Source: Flavobacteriales bacterium (GTDB taxonomy: Bacteria; Bacteroidota; Bacteroidia; CAIKAF01). Taken from it: a DNA stretch of 64,000 nt. Location: NCBI GenBank assembly GCA_026418175.1, contig JAOABX010000005.1:62001-126000 (forward strand). The letters are read 5' to 3'. The number at the start of each line of letters is the position of its first letter. The first letter of the stretch is position 1. This document shows, in pieces, positions 37,714 through 46,885 of this stretch. The notes below the pieces were generated by a model. The model was not told where the DNA came from. It was given only the letters and a program-made list of their open reading frames with translations, and did no database searches. A program made the position numbers and the translations under genes.

Positions 37714-38883
37714 TTGAAAAATATTTCGAAAACAGTTTGGATTCTATCATGGGTAAGTTTATTTGCAGATACAGCCAGTGAAATGCTGTATCCTGTAATG
37801 CCAGTTTATTTAAAAACAATTGGATTCTCGATGTTGTTAATTGGAATCCTAGAAGGCATAGCTGAAGCAACAGCAGGCTTAAGTAAAGGATATTTCGGAA
37901 AATTATCAGATAATACCGGGAAACGTACTCCGTTTGTTCAACTTGGTTATACACTTAGTGCAATTTCAAAACCCTTAATTGTTTTATTTGCATATCCACT
38001 ATGGGTGTTTTTTGCTCGTACACTTGACCGGCTTGGAAAAGGAATTCGAACTGCTGCCAGAGATGCTTTACTTTCAGAAGAATCAACCCCACAAACCAAA
38101 GGGAAAGTATTTGGGCTTCACCGATCCATGGATACATTGGGAGCAGTAATTGGACCTTCCCTTGCACTCATCTATCTGCATTTTTATCCACAAAATTATG
38201 TTACACTGTTTTATATTGCATTTATTCCGGGTATTGCGGCTGTAATTACATCTTTACTACTTAAAGATAAAAAAATACTCCAAAATAAATTCTATCAAAA
38301 AACATCATTTTTTTCCTTCTTCCAATATTGGAAAGTAAGCTCATTAAACTATAAAAAAGTTGTTATCGGCTTATTATTATTTTCCATATTTAACAGTTCA
38401 GATGTATTTCTTTTGCTAAAAGCTAAAGAATCGGGAATAAGCGATTCTTTATTAATTGGTATATACATTTTTTATAATCTTATTTATGCATTATTTGCAT
38501 TTCCATTAGGAATTATTGCAGATAAAACAGGATTAAAAAAAATTTTTTTATTTGGCTTGATATTATTTGCAATAGTGTATGCAGGTATGGCCTTTAATGA
38601 ACTTCCATATATGTTTTATATTTTGTTTTTTATGTACGGCATTTATGCTGCATCAACCGAAAGTATATCCAAAGCATGGATAACTATTATAACAGATAAA
38701 AAAGATACGGCTACTGCCATTGGAATGTTTTCCTCCTTACAAAGTATAGCAACATTAGCAGCCAGCAGCTTAACCGGGTTAATATGGCATTTTTGGGGTG
38801 CAGAAACAGCATTATTGATTTCAGCCGGAGGAACTATATTGGTGATAATTTTCTTCTTGTTTTTTGTAAATAATTCAAAGTAA
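37714..38883 (+). CDS. Major facilitator superfamily transporter
   Basis: 389 residues, 12 helices. The first helix begins NISKTVWILSWVSLFADTASEMLYPVMPVYLKTIGF; loop 2-3 carries KLSDNTGKRTPFVQLGY and the MFS signature region DRLGKGIRTAARDALLS is unusually close to nitrate/polyol-type MFS. The frame opens at TTG and no ATG occurs before helix 1 begins, so TTG is accepted; a -7-like box sits 16 nt upstream. The direction of transport and substrate are unknown; its position downstream of the HMA/TonB pair suggests metal or metal-complex transport, but no metal-binding motif is evident. Confidence 0.88.
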   Translation: MKNISKTVWILSWVSLFADTASEMLYPVMPVYLKTIGFSMLLIGILEGIAEATAGLSKGYFGKLSDNTGKRTPFVQLGYTLSAISKPLIVLFAYPLWVFFARTLDRLGKGIRTAARDALLSEESTPQTKGKVFGLHRSMDTLGAVIGPSLALIYLHFYPQNYVTLFYIAFIPGIAAVITSLLLKDKKILQNKFYQKTSFFSFFQYWKVSSLNYKKVVIGLLLFSIFNSSDVFLLLKAKESGISDSLLIGIYIFYNLIYALFAFPLGIIADKTGLKKIFLFGLILFAIVYAGMAFNELPYMFYILFFMYGIYAASTESISKAWITIITDKKDTATAIGMFSSLQSIATLAASSLTGLIWHFWGAETALLISAGGTILVIIFFLFFVNNSK

Positions 38884-38930
38884 TTTTATTATAGGTAATG
38901 CTATATTAAAAACTTTCGTTTGACGGAAAA

Positions 38931-38961
38931 GTTGATAATTTGGAAATGATGTTTAATTTTG
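38931..38961 (+). promoter_or_regulatory. Promoter of the histidine operon leader
   Basis: GTTG (38931-38934), 19 bp, then TAATTTTG (38954-38961). The -7 is a perfect TAnnTTTG, the -33 matches three of four. The leader peptide starts within 5-10 nt downstream. Confidence 0.65.
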
Positions 38962-38965
38962 CCTT

Positions 38966-39019
38966 ATGATTATGAATTTGTCTTTGCATTATCACTTTCA
39001 TTGCTTCCCTAATGGGTAA
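38966..39019 (+). CDS. Histidine operon leader peptide (HisL-like)
   Basis: A 17-residue ORF, MIMNLSLHYHFHCFPNG then TAA, with His codons CAT/CAC/CAT at residues 8, 10 and 12. A second ATG at 38972 would give 15 residues and leaves a more usual 10-nt distance from the -7 element. Ribosome stalling at the His codons when charged tRNA-His is low would leave the stop-codon region free to pair. It lies directly after a good promoter and before the terminator hairpin, the complete context of ribosome-mediated attenuation. No Shine-Dalgarno is seen, normal for the phylum. Confidence 0.85.
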   Translation: MIMNLSLHYHFHCFPNG

Positions 39020-39088
39020 GCTTAAGTGGTATTGCAATTAAAGCATACGCACAAAGGCTTACCAATTTTGGTAAGCCTTTGTTGTTTT
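39011..39088 (+). promoter_or_regulatory. Attenuator: antiterminator and terminator hairpins of the his operon
   Basis: Terminator: CAAAGGCTTACC (39052-39063), loop AATTTT, GGTAAGCCTTTG (39070-39081), a perfect 12-bp stem followed by TTGTTTT. Antiterminator: GGTAAGC (39015-39021), overlapping the leader stop codon, is exactly complementary to GCTTACC of the terminator 5' arm (39057-39063), and flanking bases add A-U and G-U pairs with one mismatch. Stalling at His codons should favour the antiterminator; a ribosome at the stop codon covers 39015-39021 and lets the terminator form. Confidence 0.85.
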
Positions 39089-39300
39089 GAAGTGAACATA
39101 AATGCAAACATAATGTTAAACATGCAGCCTCAACTTACATGGTATAGGAAAAAGTACAACTATGGATTGGCAAGAAAAAGAAGTGGTGTGGCAAGAGACT
39201 TACCAATTCTATGGGAAGAGAATCCTAAGCGCAATAATAAAAGTCTGGTACAAATCCTATTGAGGATAAGACGGTACAAACTGCTCTAAAAATTAATTCT
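39089..39300 (+). other. 212-bp spacer between attenuator and hisG
   Basis: No supported gene. A 33-codon ORF (39162-39263, MDWQEKEVVWQ) and an 87-codon ORF (39026-39289) are visible but match no family. CTTACCAATT from the terminator (39059-39068) recurs at 39199-39208. Confidence 0.55.
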
Positions 39301-40158
39301 ATGGATAAACTTAAAATTGCACTACAAAAATCAGGAAGACTTCATGAAGATTCGGTAAAATTGCTGAAAGAATGTGGAATTGATATCAGTAATGGTTTAA
39401 ATAAATTAAAAATTGAAGCTGAAAATTTTCCATTGGAAGTATTCTTTTTTAGGGATGATGATATACCTCAATATGTGGAAGAAGGTATTGCTGATGTAGG
39501 AATTGTAGGCGAAAATGTTCTAGTAGAAAAACAAGCGCTGGTGGATGTGATTGAACCTTTAGGTTTTGGTAAATGTAGATTATCTATTGCAGTTCCAAGA
39601 GCGGCAGCATATGATAGTTTGAATTGGCTGAATGGGAAAAGAATTGCAACCAGTTATAAAAATTTACTGCTACAATTTTTAAAGAATAATAACATCGAAG
39701 CTGAAATACATGAAATAAGCGGATCGGTGGAAATTGCTCCTAGTATAGGTTTAGCGGATGCTATTTGTGATTTGGTAAGTACGGGTAGTACATTATTTAG
39801 TAATGGTTTGAAGGAAGCCGAAACGGTATTTAAGAGTGAAGCTGTATTAATAGCACACAAACAACTCAGTGATGAAAAACAGCATTTATTAAACAAACTT
39901 TTATTTAGAATAAAAGCTGTAAAAAAATCAAAACATAATAAATACATATTACTAAATGCCCCCAATGAAAAGTTAAATGCCATCTGCCATATCTTGCCTG
40001 GTATAAAAAGCCCAACAATATTGCCTTTGGCAGAACCAGGCTGGAGTTCTGTACATTCAGTAGTGCATGAAGATCATTTTTGGGAAATCATTGAACAGTT
40101 GAAAGCCGAAGGCGCCCAAGGAATATTAGTAATACCTATTGAAAAAATGATTGTATGA
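39301..40158 (+). CDS. hisG: ATP phosphoribosyltransferase, long form (HisG)
   Basis: 285 residues, so the long form with a C-terminal regulatory domain. LKIALQKSGRLHEDSVKLLKECGI at the start; GIADVGIVGENVLVE; phosphate-binding EIAPSIGLADAICDLVSTGSTLFSNGL; C-terminal regulatory part from about 215 (PTILPLAEPGWSSVHSVVHEDHFWEIIEQLKAEGAQGILVIPIEKMI). It catalyses the first step of histidine synthesis, ATP + PRPP to phosphoribosyl-ATP, and is normally feedback-inhibited by histidine through the C-terminal domain. First structural gene after the attenuator; 4-nt overlap with hisD. Confidence 0.97.
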   Translation: MDKLKIALQKSGRLHEDSVKLLKECGIDISNGLNKLKIEAENFPLEVFFFRDDDIPQYVEEGIADVGIVGENVLVEKQALVDVIEPLGFGKCRLSIAVPRAAAYDSLNWLNGKRIATSYKNLLLQFLKNNNIEAEIHEISGSVEIAPSIGLADAICDLVSTGSTLFSNGLKEAETVFKSEAVLIAHKQLSDEKQHLLNKLLFRIKAVKKSKHNKYILLNAPNEKLNAICHILPGIKSPTILPLAEPGWSSVHSVVHEDHFWEIIEQLKAEGAQGILVIPIEKMIV

Positions 40159-41444
40159 TACAAGTAATCGCCTATCCTGAAACTACACAATGGAAAAGCT
40201 TAGTACAGCGTCCGGTACTTGACAGAGAAGATTTAACTAACCGGGTAAAAGATATGCTGGAAGATGTGCGCCTAAATGGAGATGATGCAGTACTAAACTA
40301 TACCCGCATGTATGATTATGCAAATGCTAAATCTTTGCGAATAGAAGCATCCGACTTCAAAAAATCGGTAGAAAATGTGTCTGAAAATTTAAAAATAGCC
40401 ATTGAAATGGCTATTCTAAATATCCAAAAATTTCATTCAACACAACATGAAATAGAACATGTAATAGAAACCATGCCGGGAGTGAAGTGTTGGCGTAAAA
40501 GTGTAGCCATCGAGAAAGTCGGATTATATATTCCGGGAGGAACAGCCCCTCTATTCTCAACCCTGCTTATGTTGACCATTCCGGCACAAATTGCTGGTTG
40601 CAATGAAATTGTAGTCTGTACTCCACCCGACAAAAATGGTCGAATTGCGCCTGAAATTCTATATTGTGCCCATCGTTTGGGCTTGCAACAAGTATTTGCC
40701 TGCGGTGGTGTACAAGCCATAGGTGCCATGGCTTTTGGAACAGAAACTGTACCCGCAGTTTATAAAATTTTTGGCCCCGGTAATCAATACGTAACCGAAG
40801 CCAAACAACAAATTCAAAGCTGGGGCGTAGCCATTGATATGCCTGCAGGCCCGTCGGAAGTATTGGTTATTGCAGAGCCTGATGCAAATTCATCATTTAT
40901 TGCAGCTGATTTATTATCGCAGGCTGAACATGGAGCCGATTCACAAGTAATTTTACTCACTAACGATGAAAAGTTAGCATTACTTGTTCAGCAAGAATTA
41001 CAACATCAAATTAATGTATTACCAAGAAAAGAAATAGTACACAGAGCACTTAAAAATAGCCGATGCATTATATTAAACAATCGGGATGAGATGATTGAAT
41101 TTAGCAATATGTATGCCCCTGAACATTTAATCATTCATGCAAAAGATACGGCATGGTATGAAAATCGCATTAAGAATGCAGGTTCGGTATTTTTAGGAGC
41201 TTACACACCGGAAAGTGCCGGCGATTATGCCTCTGGCACAAACCATACATTGCCGACCAATGGTTATGCCAGAAACTATAGTGGTGTATCATTGGATAGT
41301 TTTGTACGAAAAATCACATATCAACAAATTACTACAGAAGGTTTAAAAGCATTAGGTAATACTATAATAGAAATGGCCAGAGCAGAACATTTGGAAGCTC
41401 ATGCCCAAGCAGTTGAAATACGAATGAATACATTAAAACAATGA
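40155..41444 (+). CDS. hisD: Histidinol dehydrogenase (HisD)
   Basis: 429 residues. Family signatures: VGLYIPGGTAPLFSTLLMLTIPAQ, EIVVCTPPDKNG, ACGGVQAIGAMAFGTETVP, IFGPGNQYVTEAK, DMPAGPSEVLVIAEPDA, DLLSQAEHGADSQVILLT with zinc-binding Gln and His, MYAPEHLIIH and GDYASGTNHTLPTNG. It oxidises histidinol to histidine in two NAD-dependent steps, the last of the pathway. ATGA overlaps join it to hisG and hisC. Confidence 0.98.
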   Translation: MIQVIAYPETTQWKSLVQRPVLDREDLTNRVKDMLEDVRLNGDDAVLNYTRMYDYANAKSLRIEASDFKKSVENVSENLKIAIEMAILNIQKFHSTQHEIEHVIETMPGVKCWRKSVAIEKVGLYIPGGTAPLFSTLLMLTIPAQIAGCNEIVVCTPPDKNGRIAPEILYCAHRLGLQQVFACGGVQAIGAMAFGTETVPAVYKIFGPGNQYVTEAKQQIQSWGVAIDMPAGPSEVLVIAEPDANSSFIAADLLSQAEHGADSQVILLTNDEKLALLVQQELQHQINVLPRKEIVHRALKNSRCIILNNRDEMIEFSNMYAPEHLIIHAKDTAWYENRIKNAGSVFLGAYTPESAGDYASGTNHTLPTNGYARNYSGVSLDSFVRKITYQQITTEGLKALGNTIIEMARAEHLEAHAQAVEIRMNTLKQ

Positions 41445-42499
41445 TGAAGATAGAAGATGTATTAGAATTGGTTCGTCCAAATATTAAGCAACTTACTCCC
41501 TATTCATCTGCTAGGGATGAATACAAAGGCGAGGTCGGAATTTTTTTGGATGCCAATGAGAATTCCTTTGGATCACCGATAGATCCATGTGTCAATCGTT
41601 ATCCAGACCCCTTGCAAACTCAAGTTAAAAAAAAATTAGCAAGTATAAAAAACATTTATCCTGATCAAATTTTCTTGGGAAATGGCAGCGATGAATCCAT
41701 CGATGTATTGCTGCGAACGTTTTGTAAGCCCGGGCAAGATGAAGTCATTATTCTTCCTCCAACCTACGGCATGTATGAAGTGGCTGCAAAAATTCATGAA
41801 TTGCAAGTAAAAAAAATATTATTGGATGATACATTTCAACCGGATGTAACAGAGATATTAAATCAATTTAATTCAAATACCCGCATGATCTTTTTTTGCA
41901 GCCCGAACAATCCAACGGGAAATTTGATGGATTATGATCGAATTAAAATTGTATTAGAAAAATTTAAAGGAATTGTAGTGGTAGATGAAGCTTATATAGA
42001 TTATGCTAAATCTTCATCCTGGATTCAGGAATTAAAAAACTACCCTCATTTAGTAGTTTTACAAACCTTTTCTAAAGCCTGGGGATTAGCAGGTATTCGG
42101 GCAGGTATGGCTTTTGCACACCCACAAATCATTACTATTTTAAATAAAGTAAAAATGCCCTATAATGTAAGTTCAATTACTCAAAAATATTTGCTTGAGG
42201 CTATGAATAATCAAGCATTTGTTGAATTTGCCATTCAACAAACAATACAGGAAAAAACTCATCTAATTCAAAGATTGCAACAATTTAAATCAGTAAAAAC
42301 CATCTACCCATCGGATGCAAACTTTTTGTTGGTTAAAATGAATCAGGCTGATGAGGTATATCAACAATTAATTGAAAAGAAAATCATTATCCGCAACCGT
42401 AGTCGAGTAGAAAAATGTAATAATTGCCTTCGTATTACCATTGGTAAGCCTCATGAAAATAAGGCATTGTTAGAAGCATTATCACAAATAATAAACTAA
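41441..42499 (+). CDS. hisC: Histidinol-phosphate aminotransferase (HisC)
   Basis: 352 residues, fold-type I PLP aminotransferase. DANENSFGSP near the start; phosphate loop NGSDESIDVLL; substrate loop PTYGMYEVAA; CSPNNPTGN with Asn; VVDEAYIDY; PLP Lys in FSKAWGLAGIRAG; C-terminal RNRSRVEKCNNCLRITIGKP. It transfers the amino group from glutamate to imidazole acetol phosphate. Adjacent ATGs MM allow a one-codon shift of the start. Confidence 0.97.
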   Translation: MMKIEDVLELVRPNIKQLTPYSSARDEYKGEVGIFLDANENSFGSPIDPCVNRYPDPLQTQVKKKLASIKNIYPDQIFLGNGSDESIDVLLRTFCKPGQDEVIILPPTYGMYEVAAKIHELQVKKILLDDTFQPDVTEILNQFNSNTRMIFFCSPNNPTGNLMDYDRIKIVLEKFKGIVVVDEAYIDYAKSSSWIQELKNYPHLVVLQTFSKAWGLAGIRAGMAFAHPQIITILNKVKMPYNVSSITQKYLLEAMNNQAFVEFAIQQTIQEKTHLIQRLQQFKSVKTIYPSDANFLLVKMNQADEVYQQLIEKKIIIRNRSRVEKCNNCLRITIGKPHENKALLEALSQIIN

Positions 42500-42507
42500 A
42501 AAAAGCA

Positions 42508-43632
42508 ATGTATAGTATGAATAAACCACGCATATTATTCATTGATCGCGATGGAACATTAATCAAAGAACCACCAATCACTTTTCAGGTGGATCATTTC
42601 GATCAGTTGGAATTTTTACCCGGAGTGATTCGTCATTTGGGAAACATTGCACAATCAAGGCAATACCGATTGGTAATGGTAACTAACCAAGATGGACTTG
42701 GAACAGAAAATTATCCGGAAGAGCGTTTTTGGCCTATTCAACGACTCATCATTCGCATATTGGAAGCTGAAGGAATTCATTTTGATGAGGTACATATTGA
42801 CCGTTCCTATCCACATGAAAATTTACCTACCCGAAAACCAGGAACAGGTATGTTAACTCATTTTTTAAATGGAGAGTATGATATAGAAAATTCATTTGTA
42901 ATTGGAGATCGGTTAACAGATGTGATGTTGGCAAAAAATTTAGGTTGTAAATCTATTTTTATTCACAACTATGATAATCCACAACAATCAGAAATACCAA
43001 TCGACTTCATTGCCTTTCATTGGAAAGAAATTGAAGAGTATTTACTACACCCCCCGAGAATAGCTAGTGAACATCGAAAAACCAACGAAACAGAAATAAA
43101 GGTTGAAATAAATTTGGATGGAACCGGAAAATCATCTATCCACACCGGTATTGGATTTTTTGATCACATGTTGGAACAAATTGCCCGACATGGTAAAATA
43201 GACATAATGATTCAAGCAAACGGCGATTTACATATTGATGAACACCATACCATTGAAGATACTGGAATTACATTAGGTAAAGCTTTTACAAAAGCCATGG
43301 GAAATAAAATGGGGATGGAACGATATGGATTTATTTTACCCATGGATGATTGCTTGGCTCAAGTTGCGGTTGATTTTGGTGGTAGGCCCTGGATTGTTTG
43401 GAATGTTGATTTTAAACGCGAAAAAATTGGAGATATGCCCACCGAAATGATTTTTCACTTTTTCAAATCATTTAGTGATGCTGCAGCTTGTAATCTCAAC
43501 ATTCAGGCTGAAGGCCAAAATGAACACCATAAAGCAGAAAGTATTTTTAAAGCATTTGCAAAAGCCTGCCGCATGGCACTGAATCGAGATACAAAATCCA
43601 AAGAACTCCCCACAACAAAAGGAATCGTATGA
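42508..43632 (+). CDS. hisB: Bifunctional histidinol-phosphatase / imidazoleglycerol-phosphate dehydratase (HisB)
   Basis: 374 residues. N-terminal HAD phosphatase 1-165: LFIDRDGTLIKEPP with DxD nucleophile (FIDRDGT), VMVTNQDGLGTENYPEERF, KPGTGM, VIGDRLTDVMLAKNLG. C-terminal IGP dehydratase about 185-374: SIHTGIGFFDHMLEQIARHG, DEHHTIEDTGITLGKAF and DDCLAQVAVDFGGRPW, with metal-binding His clusters. The fused form occurs in enterobacteria and Bacteroidota. It performs steps 7 and 9 of the pathway. The ATG at 42517 is an alternative start. Confidence 0.97.
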   Translation: MYSMNKPRILFIDRDGTLIKEPPITFQVDHFDQLEFLPGVIRHLGNIAQSRQYRLVMVTNQDGLGTENYPEERFWPIQRLIIRILEAEGIHFDEVHIDRSYPHENLPTRKPGTGMLTHFLNGEYDIENSFVIGDRLTDVMLAKNLGCKSIFIHNYDNPQQSEIPIDFIAFHWKEIEEYLLHPPRIASEHRKTNETEIKVEINLDGTGKSSIHTGIGFFDHMLEQIARHGKIDIMIQANGDLHIDEHHTIEDTGITLGKAFTKAMGNKMGMERYGFILPMDDCLAQVAVDFGGRPWIVWNVDFKREKIGDMPTEMIFHFFKSFSDAAACNLNIQAEGQNEHHKAESIFKAFAKACRMALNRDTKSKELPTTKGIV

Positions 43633-44219
43633 GTAATACATTGGTAATGATTGATAATTACGATTCGTTTACCTACAATTTGGTACATTATATTGAAATG
43701 TATTGGGATGGAGAATTGGCAGTCATGAAAAACGATGCTATAGATTGGGATGTATTAGAACAATGCTTTGGCATCATACTGTCTCCGGGTCCTGGATTAC
43801 CCAATGAATCTGGCATGCTGATGAAAGCAATCAACCAATACTTTTATCAAAAACCTATATTAGGTGTTTGCTTAGGGCAGCAAGCATTAGCCGAAGCTAC
43901 AGGAGCTCAATTAAAAAATTTATCAAATGTTTATCATGGTGTAGCAACACCAATTAAATTAATGAATATAAAACATCCTTTGTTTAAAGATTTACCTCCA
44001 ACTATTTCAGTTGGTAGATACCATTCTTGGGTAATTGATCAATCTACATTAGGAAATATGTGGGAAATTTCTGCTATAGATGAGAATAATGAAATTATGG
44101 CTATTCAACATAAAACTTATCCTGTATGCGCTGTACAATTTCATCCTGAATCAGTGCTAACACCAAATGGGAAAAAAATGATTGAAAACTGGATTAATAG
44201 TTTATATAAACACCCATGA
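43629..44219 (+). CDS. TrpG/PabA-like glutamine amidotransferase inside the his operon
   Basis: 196 residues, class I glutamine amidotransferase of the anthranilate/aminodeoxychorismate synthase component II type. N-terminal MIDNYDSFTYNLVHY, SPGPGLPNESGM; nucleophile Cys81 in GVCLGQQALAEATG; catalytic His172/Glu174 in AVQFHPES. In the elbow the common GVCLGHQ is GVCLGQQ. The triad is intact, so it should release ammonia from glutamine for a chorismate-using partner (TrpE or PabB), neither of which is in the window. It joins hisB and hisH by 4-nt ATGA overlaps, so it is a full member of the operon. Confidence 0.9.
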   Translation: MSNTLVMIDNYDSFTYNLVHYIEMYWDGELAVMKNDAIDWDVLEQCFGIILSPGPGLPNESGMLMKAINQYFYQKPILGVCLGQQALAEATGAQLKNLSNVYHGVATPIKLMNIKHPLFKDLPPTISVGRYHSWVIDQSTLGNMWEISAIDENNEIMAIQHKTYPVCAVQFHPESVLTPNGKKMIENWINSLYKHP

Positions 44220-44800
44220 AAACTGTCATTATTCAATATAACGCCGGGAATATCACTTCTGTGAAAATTGCTTTAGAAAGACTTGGTGTTTCCTATACCT
44301 TGAGCAATGAAGCAGAAATTATACAACAAGCCGATCGGGTCATATTTCCCGGTGTGGGGGAAGCCTCTTCAGCGATGAAGTATTTACAAGAGCGCAATTT
44401 AGATCTGGTGATTCGTTCGCTCAAACAACCGGTATTGGGAATTTGCTTAGGGATGCAATTGCTATGCCGTTATTCAGAAGAGGGGAACACCCAATGCCTA
44501 GGTATCATTCCAACCGATGTAAAAAAATTTAATAATCAACTTAAAGTACCTCAAATCGGTTGGAATACGATCAATACTTTAAATGATTCAATATTTAATA
44601 ATATCCCAGAAAATGCTTTTGTATATTATGTTCATGGATATTATGTTCAGAAAAATGATTATACCATTGCAACAACCACGTATGGCTTAGATTATTCAGC
44701 AGCCATTCGTAAAGAAAAGTTTTGGGGGGTACAATTTCATCCTGAAAAATCAGCACAAATCGGAGAACAAATTCTAAAAAACTTTTTATCCTTTTCATAA
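44216..44800 (+). CDS. hisH: Imidazole glycerol phosphate synthase glutaminase subunit (HisH)
   Basis: 194 residues. IIQYNAGNITSVKIALERLG and FPGVGEASSAMKYL set the HisH family; nucleophile Cys77 in GICLGMQLLC; His175/Glu177 in GVQFHPEKS; YYVHGYYV is the HisH-specific loop. It supplies ammonia to HisF. It overlaps the TrpG-like gene by 4 nt and hisA by 1 nt. Confidence 0.96.
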   Translation: MKTVIIQYNAGNITSVKIALERLGVSYTLSNEAEIIQQADRVIFPGVGEASSAMKYLQERNLDLVIRSLKQPVLGICLGMQLLCRYSEEGNTQCLGIIPTDVKKFNNQLKVPQIGWNTINTLNDSIFNNIPENAFVYYVHGYYVQKNDYTIATTTYGLDYSAAIRKEKFWGVQFHPEKSAQIGEQILKNFLSFS

Positions 44801-45537
44801 TGGAAATAATACCTGCAATTGATATTATAGATGGAGCTTGCGTTCGTTTAACACAAGGCAATTACCATGAAAAAACTATTTATGCTTCAAATCCTTTAGA
44901 AGTTGCCAAACAAATGGAAGATCATGGAGTAAAATCGTTGCACTTAGTAGATTTAGATGGAGCCAAAAAAGGAAAAATCATACATTTAAAAGTATTAGAA
45001 ATCATTGCCAAAAACACCTTATTAAAAATTGATTTTGGAGGAGGTGTAAAAACAGTTGAAGATGCCAAAAACATAATAGAAGCTGGGGCTCATTGGGTAA
45101 CCATCGGTAGCTTAGCTGTAAAACAACCAGAAACCATGATGAAAATAATTAATGCAATAAGCACTGAAAAAATAATGTTGGGAGCGGATGTAAAAAATGA
45201 ATATTTGCAAATTCACGGATGGCTTGAAAATACAGATATAACGGTTTACCAATTCATAGAAAAATATAAAAATCTTGGTATTCAACGTTTTTTTTGTACA
45301 GACATTTCAAAAGACGGAATGCTGGAAGGCCCTGCTATTGATTTATATCGAAAGATATTAAAACAATTCCCCGAAATTTATTTCATAGCGAGTGGAGGAG
45401 TAACATCCCTTAACGATTTGCAAAACTTAAAATCCATTGGTTGCAAAGCAGCGATTGTAGGAAAAGCCATCTATGAAGGTCACATTCGCTTATCTGAAAT
45501 TCAAACCTGGAATCAACAAAATAAAAGCACATGTTAG
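44800..45537 (+). CDS. hisA: Phosphoribosyl-formimino-AICAR-phosphate isomerase (HisA)
   Basis: 245 residues, TIM barrel. [90 protein letters not shown] and [14 protein letters not shown] cover the phosphate loops and the two catalytic Asp (AIDII and TDISKDG). Performs the Amadori rearrangement of ProFAR. Ends with a 7-nt overlap with hisF. Confidence 0.97.
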
Positions 45538-46289
45538 CAAAACGAGTCATTCCATGTTTAGACATTAAAGACGGTCGTACAGTAAAGGGAACCAATTTTG
45601 TAAATCTTCAGGATGCCGGTAATCCGGTAGAATTAGCCATTCGTTATGTACATGAACAAGCTGATGAATTAGTTTTTCTGGATATTACAGCTACACACGA
45701 AAACCGAAGTACTCTGTATCAATTGGTGCATGAAGTAGCTTCGTGTGTAAACATTCCTTTTACTGTAGGGGGTGGTGTTCGCAGCATTGACGATGTAAAC
45801 ATGTTATTAAAACAAGGTGCAGATAAAATTTCCATCAACTCAGCAGCTGTCAGAAATCCTACCTTAATTACAACATTAGCAAAAGAATTTGGCAGCCAAT
45901 GTATTGTTTTGGCTGTTGATGTTAAAGAAGCCATCCCGGGAAATTGGTTCGTATATTTAAACGGAGGCCGCATAGCCACTGAAATAGATGCTATTTCATG
46001 GATTCAAGAAGCTGTTGATCGTGGTGCCGGTGAAATCTTATTAACTTCCATGGATCATGATGGAACCAAAAACGGATTTGCAATAGAACTAACCCGTAAA
46101 ATATCTGAATCTGTTACTGTACCGGTAATTGCGTCAGGCGGAGCAGGTAATATGAAACATTTTGAAGAAGTTTTTAAAATTGGAAAAGCTGACGCAGCAT
46201 TGGCTGCCAGCGTTTTCCATTTTCAGGAAATAACAATTCCTGAGCTGAAACACTATTTATCCAAACATCAAATACCCGTTAGAATATGA
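45531..46289 (+). CDS. hisF: Imidazole glycerol phosphate synthase cyclase subunit (HisF)
   Basis: 252 residues, TIM barrel. [21 protein letters not shown] with catalytic Asp, [74 protein letters not shown] with the second Asp, and [13 protein letters not shown]. It closes the imidazole ring with ammonia from HisH, giving IGP and AICAR. Overlaps hisA by 7 nt and hisIE by 4 nt. Confidence 0.97.
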
Positions 46290-46885
46290 AACCTAATTTT
46301 ACCAAATATCCCGATGGATTAGTACCTGTGATTATTCAAGATGCCAATACCCGAGCCGTACTTATGCTGGGCTATATGAATGATGTAGCTTGGGAAAAAA
46401 CCCAAAATGAAGATGTTATTACTTTTTACAGCCGAAGCAAGCAACGATTATGGACCAAAGGCGAAACATCCGGAAATTATTTAATTAAAAAACAAATTTT
46501 ACTCGATTGTGATCATGATTGCATTTTAATTCTTGCTGAACCGCAAGGAGCGGTTTGCCATACCGGTTCTGATACATGCTTTGGTGAAAGTAATTGTGGA
46601 AATTTTCTAAAACAATTGGAAAAAATTATTGAAGATCGAAAACTACAAAGAGATTCCAACTCATATACCGCCACTCTTTATGCTAAAGGAACCTCTAAAA
46701 TAGCACAAAAAGTAGGTGAAGAAGCGGTTGAATTGATTATTGAAGCCATGCAAAGTAATGATGAGCAATTTCTGAATGAAGCAGCCGATTTACTCTTTCA
46801 TTACCTGGTACTACTTCATCAGCGTAATAAGAATTTGGAAGATGTAATCAAAATACTTCATTACAGGCATTCAAAAACAAAATAA
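46286..46885 (+). CDS. hisI: Bifunctional phosphoribosyl-AMP cyclohydrolase / phosphoribosyl-ATP pyrophosphatase (HisIE)
   Basis: 199 residues. HisI domain 1-about 105: [65 protein letters not shown] with zinc Cys/His. HisE domain about 110-199: [21 protein letters not shown] and [17 protein letters not shown], the MazG-like helices. The fusion performs steps 2 and 3 of the pathway. It is the last gene of the operon; no clear terminator hairpin follows. Confidence 0.97.

Follow-up and report, generated by a model that had tools for sequence, protein, structure and literature searches.

The window examined here is a stretch of 64,000 nucleotides from a Flavobacteriales bacterium (contig JAOABX010000005.1, positions 62,001 to 126,000 of the forward strand). 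Between an MFS gene (37714-38883) and hisG, it contains a promoter, a short open reading frame (ORF) with three histidine codons and an intrinsic terminator, and these are followed by the genes of a histidine operon. The features of the locus are as follows, with the source of each RNA segment given in parentheses.

38931-38934, plus strand: -33 element GTTG (consensus TTTG), 19 bases from the -7 box
38954-38961, plus strand: -7 box TAATTTTG (TAnnTTTG) for the primary sigma factor (sequence)
38966-39019, plus strand: predicted His leader peptide ORF of 17 codons, encoding MIMNLSLHYHFHCFPNG*; His-rich ORFs precede hisG in the class
38984-38997, plus strand: segment 1, covering His codons 8 and 10 and forming the 5' arm of the protector hairpin (RNA folding; kept in relatives)
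39003-39021, plus strand: inner part of the protector (39003-39009 with 39014-39021), holding most of segment 2 (RNA folding)
39015-39023, plus strand: segment 2, the antiterminator strand GGTAAGCTT across the stop codon, pairing with 39055-39063 (co-variation)
39024-39037, plus strand: 3' arm of the protector, AAGTGGTATTGCAA (RNA folding)
39051-39082, plus strand: intrinsic terminator, made of segment 3 (39051-39064) and segment 4 (39069-39082) (co-variation)
39083-39089, plus strand: U-rich tract TGTTTTG, the expected 3' end of a short RNA
39301-40158, plus strand: hisG, which opens the operon and is separated from the terminator stem by 218 bases
40155-46885, plus strand: rest of the operon, with hisD, hisC, hisB, a PabA/TrpG-type amidotransferase, hisH, hisA, hisF and hisIE

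The ORFs of the operon overlap at their ends or lie a few bases apart. Since the pathway genes after hisG are so tightly packed, a single decision taken ahead of hisG would govern expression of the entire pathway. The bifunctional hisB (HAD and IGPD) and the amidotransferase were assigned by Pfam, and the other his gene names were recognised from the protein sequences and are presumed to be correct. The PabA/TrpG-type glutamine amidotransferase gene (43629-44219) is located between hisB and hisH, inside the his operon, and two chorismate-binding genes are found elsewhere in the genome.

The stretch that separates the terminator stem from hisG (39083-39300) is the longest among 83 leaders, in which the other distances range from 12 to 117 bases. 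It holds no promoter box, and specifically none of the sigma-A type is found from the terminator up to hisG. The genome has no second copy of this stretch, its 55-aa ORF matched no Pfam family, and its likeness to the leader is not convincing, with a local alignment score of 29 compared with 35-41 for the best shuffles. A match on the minus strand was discarded, being the terminator palindrome itself.

Upstream of the leader ORF, the arrangement GTTG-19-TAATTTTG constitutes a sigma-A-type promoter, which bears out the Bacteroidota type assigned to it in the initial annotation; the TTTG consensus of the -33 element is the one quoted in PMC7366714. The -7 box is the sole TAnnTTTG box on the plus strand between 38801 and 39310. 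The 17-codon ORF reported previously, with histidine at codons 8, 10 and 12, was confirmed in the sequence, where these codons occupy 38987-38989, 38993-38995 and 38999-39001 and the stop codon TAA occupies 39017-39019. Three His residues within five codons are what is expected of the leader of an attenuator, and translation of this ORF is predicted. A second in-frame ATG at 38972 (codon 3) makes a peptide of 15 rather than 17 residues possible.

The terminator between the leader ORF and the first gene, as an attenuator would have it, is the one terminator-like site in 38800-39400, compared with 0.1 expected. Its stem is a perfect helix of 14 bp, 39051-39064 with 39069-39082; the hairpin itself had been recognised in the initial annotation, which made it slightly too short at 12 bp. 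The U-rich tract that follows is broken by a G. Over the stop codon of the leader, the seven bases GGTAAGC (39015-39021) are the exact complement of GCTTACC (39057-39063) in the 5' arm of the terminator, just as had been noticed, and the full 2:3 helix comprises 9 bp, including a U-G and a U-A pair (39015-39023 with 39055-39063). This antiterminator and the terminator are mutually exclusive, and a ribosome located at the stop codon would mask the antiterminator strand. The leader RNA of 142 bases folds at -50.2 kcal/mol (z = -6.6 against shuffles), and the window's own 2:3 pairing is marginal when set against shuffles (p = 0.055).

Comparison with related genomes provides the broader evidence. 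A search for HisG in 295 genomes of the class yielded about 900 bases upstream of each of 120 hisG genes, which together with the window make 121 regions. His-rich ORFs, defined as 7-45 codons with at least three His in eight codons, were present upstream of hisG in 107 of the 121 regions, compared with 19 on the opposite strand, and raising the requirement to at least four His in eight codons left 91 regions versus one. In this strand comparison, histidine stands out from all other amino acids, and nearly all the His-rich ORFs end less than 300 bases from hisG. In 83 regions the leader is followed by a terminator with an energy of -9 kcal/mol or below; its stem is GGCTTACC-like in 42 and CGTCTGA-like in 20, and other types such as CCCGCC, CCCCATCGG and GCCACGCT also occur. 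An antiterminator strand that extends over the stop codon, which had been considered unusual, is found in 51 of the 83 relatives. Outside the class, a His-rich ORF is present in 11 of 20 further regions of the phylum, and the element is therefore either older than the class or has spread. Classical ribosome-mediated his attenuation thus appears as the rule in this class, and it extends to other classes of the phylum.

The two halves of the switch have also changed in concert, as the end of the leader varies together with the type of terminator stem. The pairings of leaders with their own terminators sum to -1170 kcal/mol, compared with a mean of -894 kcal/mol (sd 26) and a best value of -994 kcal/mol in 2000 re-matchings. 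The 2:3 pairing reaches a p of 0.05 against shuffles in 48 of the 83 regions; because the leaders are related, shuffles alone give no probability, and slid controls, which keep this relatedness, agree with them. In an alignment of 38 leaders of the GGCTTACC type (A1), 86% of the cells of helix 2:3 are paired, with 11 double changes, e.g., U-A to C-G in eight sequences, and the slid controls reach 25-49%. Helix 3:4 is paired in 88% of the cells of the same alignment and shows 28 double changes. Related his leaders, which the initial annotation had suggested as the place to look, therefore carry both the His-rich ORF and the antiterminator/terminator pairing in a conserved, co-varying form.

A further structure involves the His codons themselves. 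The ribosome-free leader (38966-39048) folds at -25.4 kcal/mol, with 38984-38988 paired to 39033-39037, 38990-38997 paired to 39024-39031 and, inside these, 39003-39009 paired to 39014-39021. Over the 83 regions, terminator-free folds pair 68% of the His-codon bases with downstream sequence, compared with 32% after shuffling of the downstream part, and 81 of the 83 relatives pair at least 40% of these bases downstream in the ribosome-free fold. The co-variation of the protector helix is weaker (59% of cells paired; 36-44% in slid controls), partly because the alignment is gapped there. The codon region thus forms the protector hairpin of an attenuator, with less co-variation behind it than behind the other two helices. 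These data bear on the reduced scheme of the initial annotation, according to which a single short pairing decides the outcome and no separate pause or protector hairpin is needed, so that 2:3 and 3:4 alone would make a two-state switch. This scheme is in keeping with 2:3 and 3:4 being the best conserved pairings, but it is at odds with the strong protector over the His codons of the window and of nearly all relatives, and we judge it unlikely. A protector that covers the His codons and is general in relatives instead argues for the classical layout of 1:2, 2:3 and 3:4 pairings.

The behavior expected from this classical layout was reproduced by RNA folding, assuming a ribosome footprint of 13 bases downstream of the first base of the A-site codon. 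If segment 4 is absent and the ribosome is held at any one of the three His codons (8, 10 or 12), the 2:3 helix forms with a hairpin inside, at -20.9 kcal/mol each time. A ribosome placed on the stop codon leaves only the terminator and its flanking stem to form, and in the fold of the window RNA with no ribosome the terminator forms as well. When segment 4 is present, the terminator beats 2:3 in every fold; since it always wins once all the RNA has been made, the switch must be kinetic and decided during transcription. Classical attenuators likewise reach their decision kinetically.

We interpret the element in the window as a ribosome-mediated transcription attenuator of the histidine operon, with a probability of roughly 0.93. 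The ribosome-mediated attenuation proposed in the initial annotation is very likely right, as its His-codon leader, the competition of 2:3 with 3:4 and the control of the his operon are conserved and co-varying in relatives. While the elements, their class-wide conservation and their co-variation are direct results of comparison and computation, from them we infer the following course of events in the cell. RNA polymerase would start at about 38966, and a ribosome would load on the leader ORF. When charged tRNA-His is ample, the ribosome would reach the stop codon and cover segment 2 (39015-39023), the terminator at 39051-39082 would form, and transcription would end near 39088. When charged tRNA-His is scarce, the ribosome would stall at His codon 8, 10 or 12 and open the protector, leaving segment 2 free to pair with 39055-39063 ahead of the synthesis of segment 4; the terminator would then fail to form, and the his genes would be transcribed. 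If no ribosome were present, the protector would keep segment 2 to itself and the terminator would form.

Other readings of the same elements carry far less weight. The hairpin might be a mere terminator of the upstream MFS gene, with the His codons present by chance; it does sit in the intergenic gap, where it would halt read-through from upstream, but it starts about 168 bases past the MFS gene and behind a promoter box of its own, and dozens of relatives have, upstream of hisG, a His leader that shares its terminator core, AAGGCTTACC..GGTAAGCCTT, which makes this origin highly improbable. Histidine could also be sensed by a T-box, a riboswitch or an RNA-binding protein, with the ORF being incidental, since a terminator/antiterminator switch taken alone would fit such sensors equally; we give this hardly any credence, as searches of the window and of 20 relatives gave no Rfam family at threshold, and in the leader peptides of relatives nothing is as constant as the runs of His codons, the remainder being variable.

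Not all members of the class follow the same arrangement. In the family designated f40 (L110-L116, L119 and L122), His leaders such as MKLTLNHHLHLHHRR are present with no strong terminator before hisG; the terminator there may be weaker, or control may work differently. A variant in which the leader governs hisG translation or ribosome re-initiation, rather than transcription, may accordingly exist elsewhere; in the window, where 281 bases, with a strong terminator among them, separate the leader stop codon from hisG, we regard this form of control as very unlikely. In another family, f43, all five genomes with hisG (L118, L120, L121, L123 and L124) are devoid of a detectable His-rich leader, and this pattern may represent a clade-wide loss or replacement. 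The his operon is also patchy closer to the window: HisG was found in 2 of 16 genomes of the family of G000, both belonging to one genus. G003 is the only other family genome with hisG, and its contig stops 86 bases short of this gene, so the nearest comparison is absent, and a wider search of genome contigs gave four loci only. PheA and IlvD, sought in G000 with sister attenuators in mind, gave no match, and there was a single HMGL-like match; the group of G000 seems to be without several amino-acid pathways.

The position of the promoter raises the possibility that the attenuator is read from an mRNA with no 5' untranslated region. For F. psychrophilum, PMC9723704 places the TAnnTTTG box at -12 to -5 and puts leaderless mRNAs at about 5.5%. 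Because this box spacing was applied to the window, the predicted +1 falls on 38966, the A of the leader ATG, and this exact position of the transcription start is as conditional as the spacing from which it is derived. With a gap of 4 bases between box and start codon, the mRNA is therefore predicted to begin with the leader start codon. Among relatives, this gap is mostly 4-20 bases, being exactly 4 in six of them and below 4 in none. It should be noted that the leader finder takes the ATG nearest to the His codons and consequently sets the window's start at 38972 (gap of 10), the gap of 4 for the start at 38966 having been counted by eye. The leader mRNA of this genome and of a few relatives may thus start at the leader's own AUG, and initiation at the second ATG (38972), which would leave a 5' UTR of 6 bases, deserves equal consideration. 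If the leader is truly leaderless, it would offer a test of how ribosomes load and keep pace with the polymerase in the absence of a 5' UTR.

For enterobacteria, textbooks describe how a His leader peptide attenuates the his operon, and the classical principle comes from E. coli. The HisL leader of E. coli and Salmonella (RF00514) follows the same logic as the window element, with a His-codon leader, protector, antiterminator and terminator before hisG. HisL contains a run of seven His codons, whereas the window has three spaced ones, together with another RNA sequence, a Bacteroidota promoter and perhaps a leader AUG with no 5' UTR ahead of it. The difference in sequence from proteobacterial HisL, anticipated in the initial annotation, is reflected in the absence of RF00514 matches at threshold in the window and 20 relatives, and of any match up to an E of 10 in the window. 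It is conceivable, with the odds somewhat against it, that the Bacteroidota his attenuator is an RNA family of its own, with an origin separate from that of proteobacterial HisL, and that it is leaderless here and in some relatives, the ribosome loading directly on the 5' end without a ribosome-binding site. The best sub-threshold Rfam match in the window is Phe_leader (RF01859), whose model is covered in full by 38965-39085, at 34.9 bits and E = 0.00046. Both share the same kind of attenuator layout; the window remains under the 55-bit threshold of that family and carries His rather than Phe codons, so it is not counted as a member.

Similar elements have been described within the phylum and beyond. 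PMC9723704 (2021) presents indications that leader peptides attenuate amino-acid operons in F. psychrophilum, and it describes a structured element before hisG that is conserved in other Flavobacteriaceae and has no Rfam family. That element shares phylum and gene with ours, which belongs to another group. Leader-like sORFs are mentioned in B. thetaiotaomicron (PMC7366714), and Lopatovskaya et al. (2010), in the form cited in PMC4833913, carried out a comparative prediction of leader-peptide attenuation that included sites before hisG in gamma-proteobacteria. The principle is therefore long known, and the attenuator of the window is a good but not surprising find. What may be new is its spread over the class and beyond, wider than we found described, its place outside the existing Rfam families, and a promoter placement that suggests a leaderless start.
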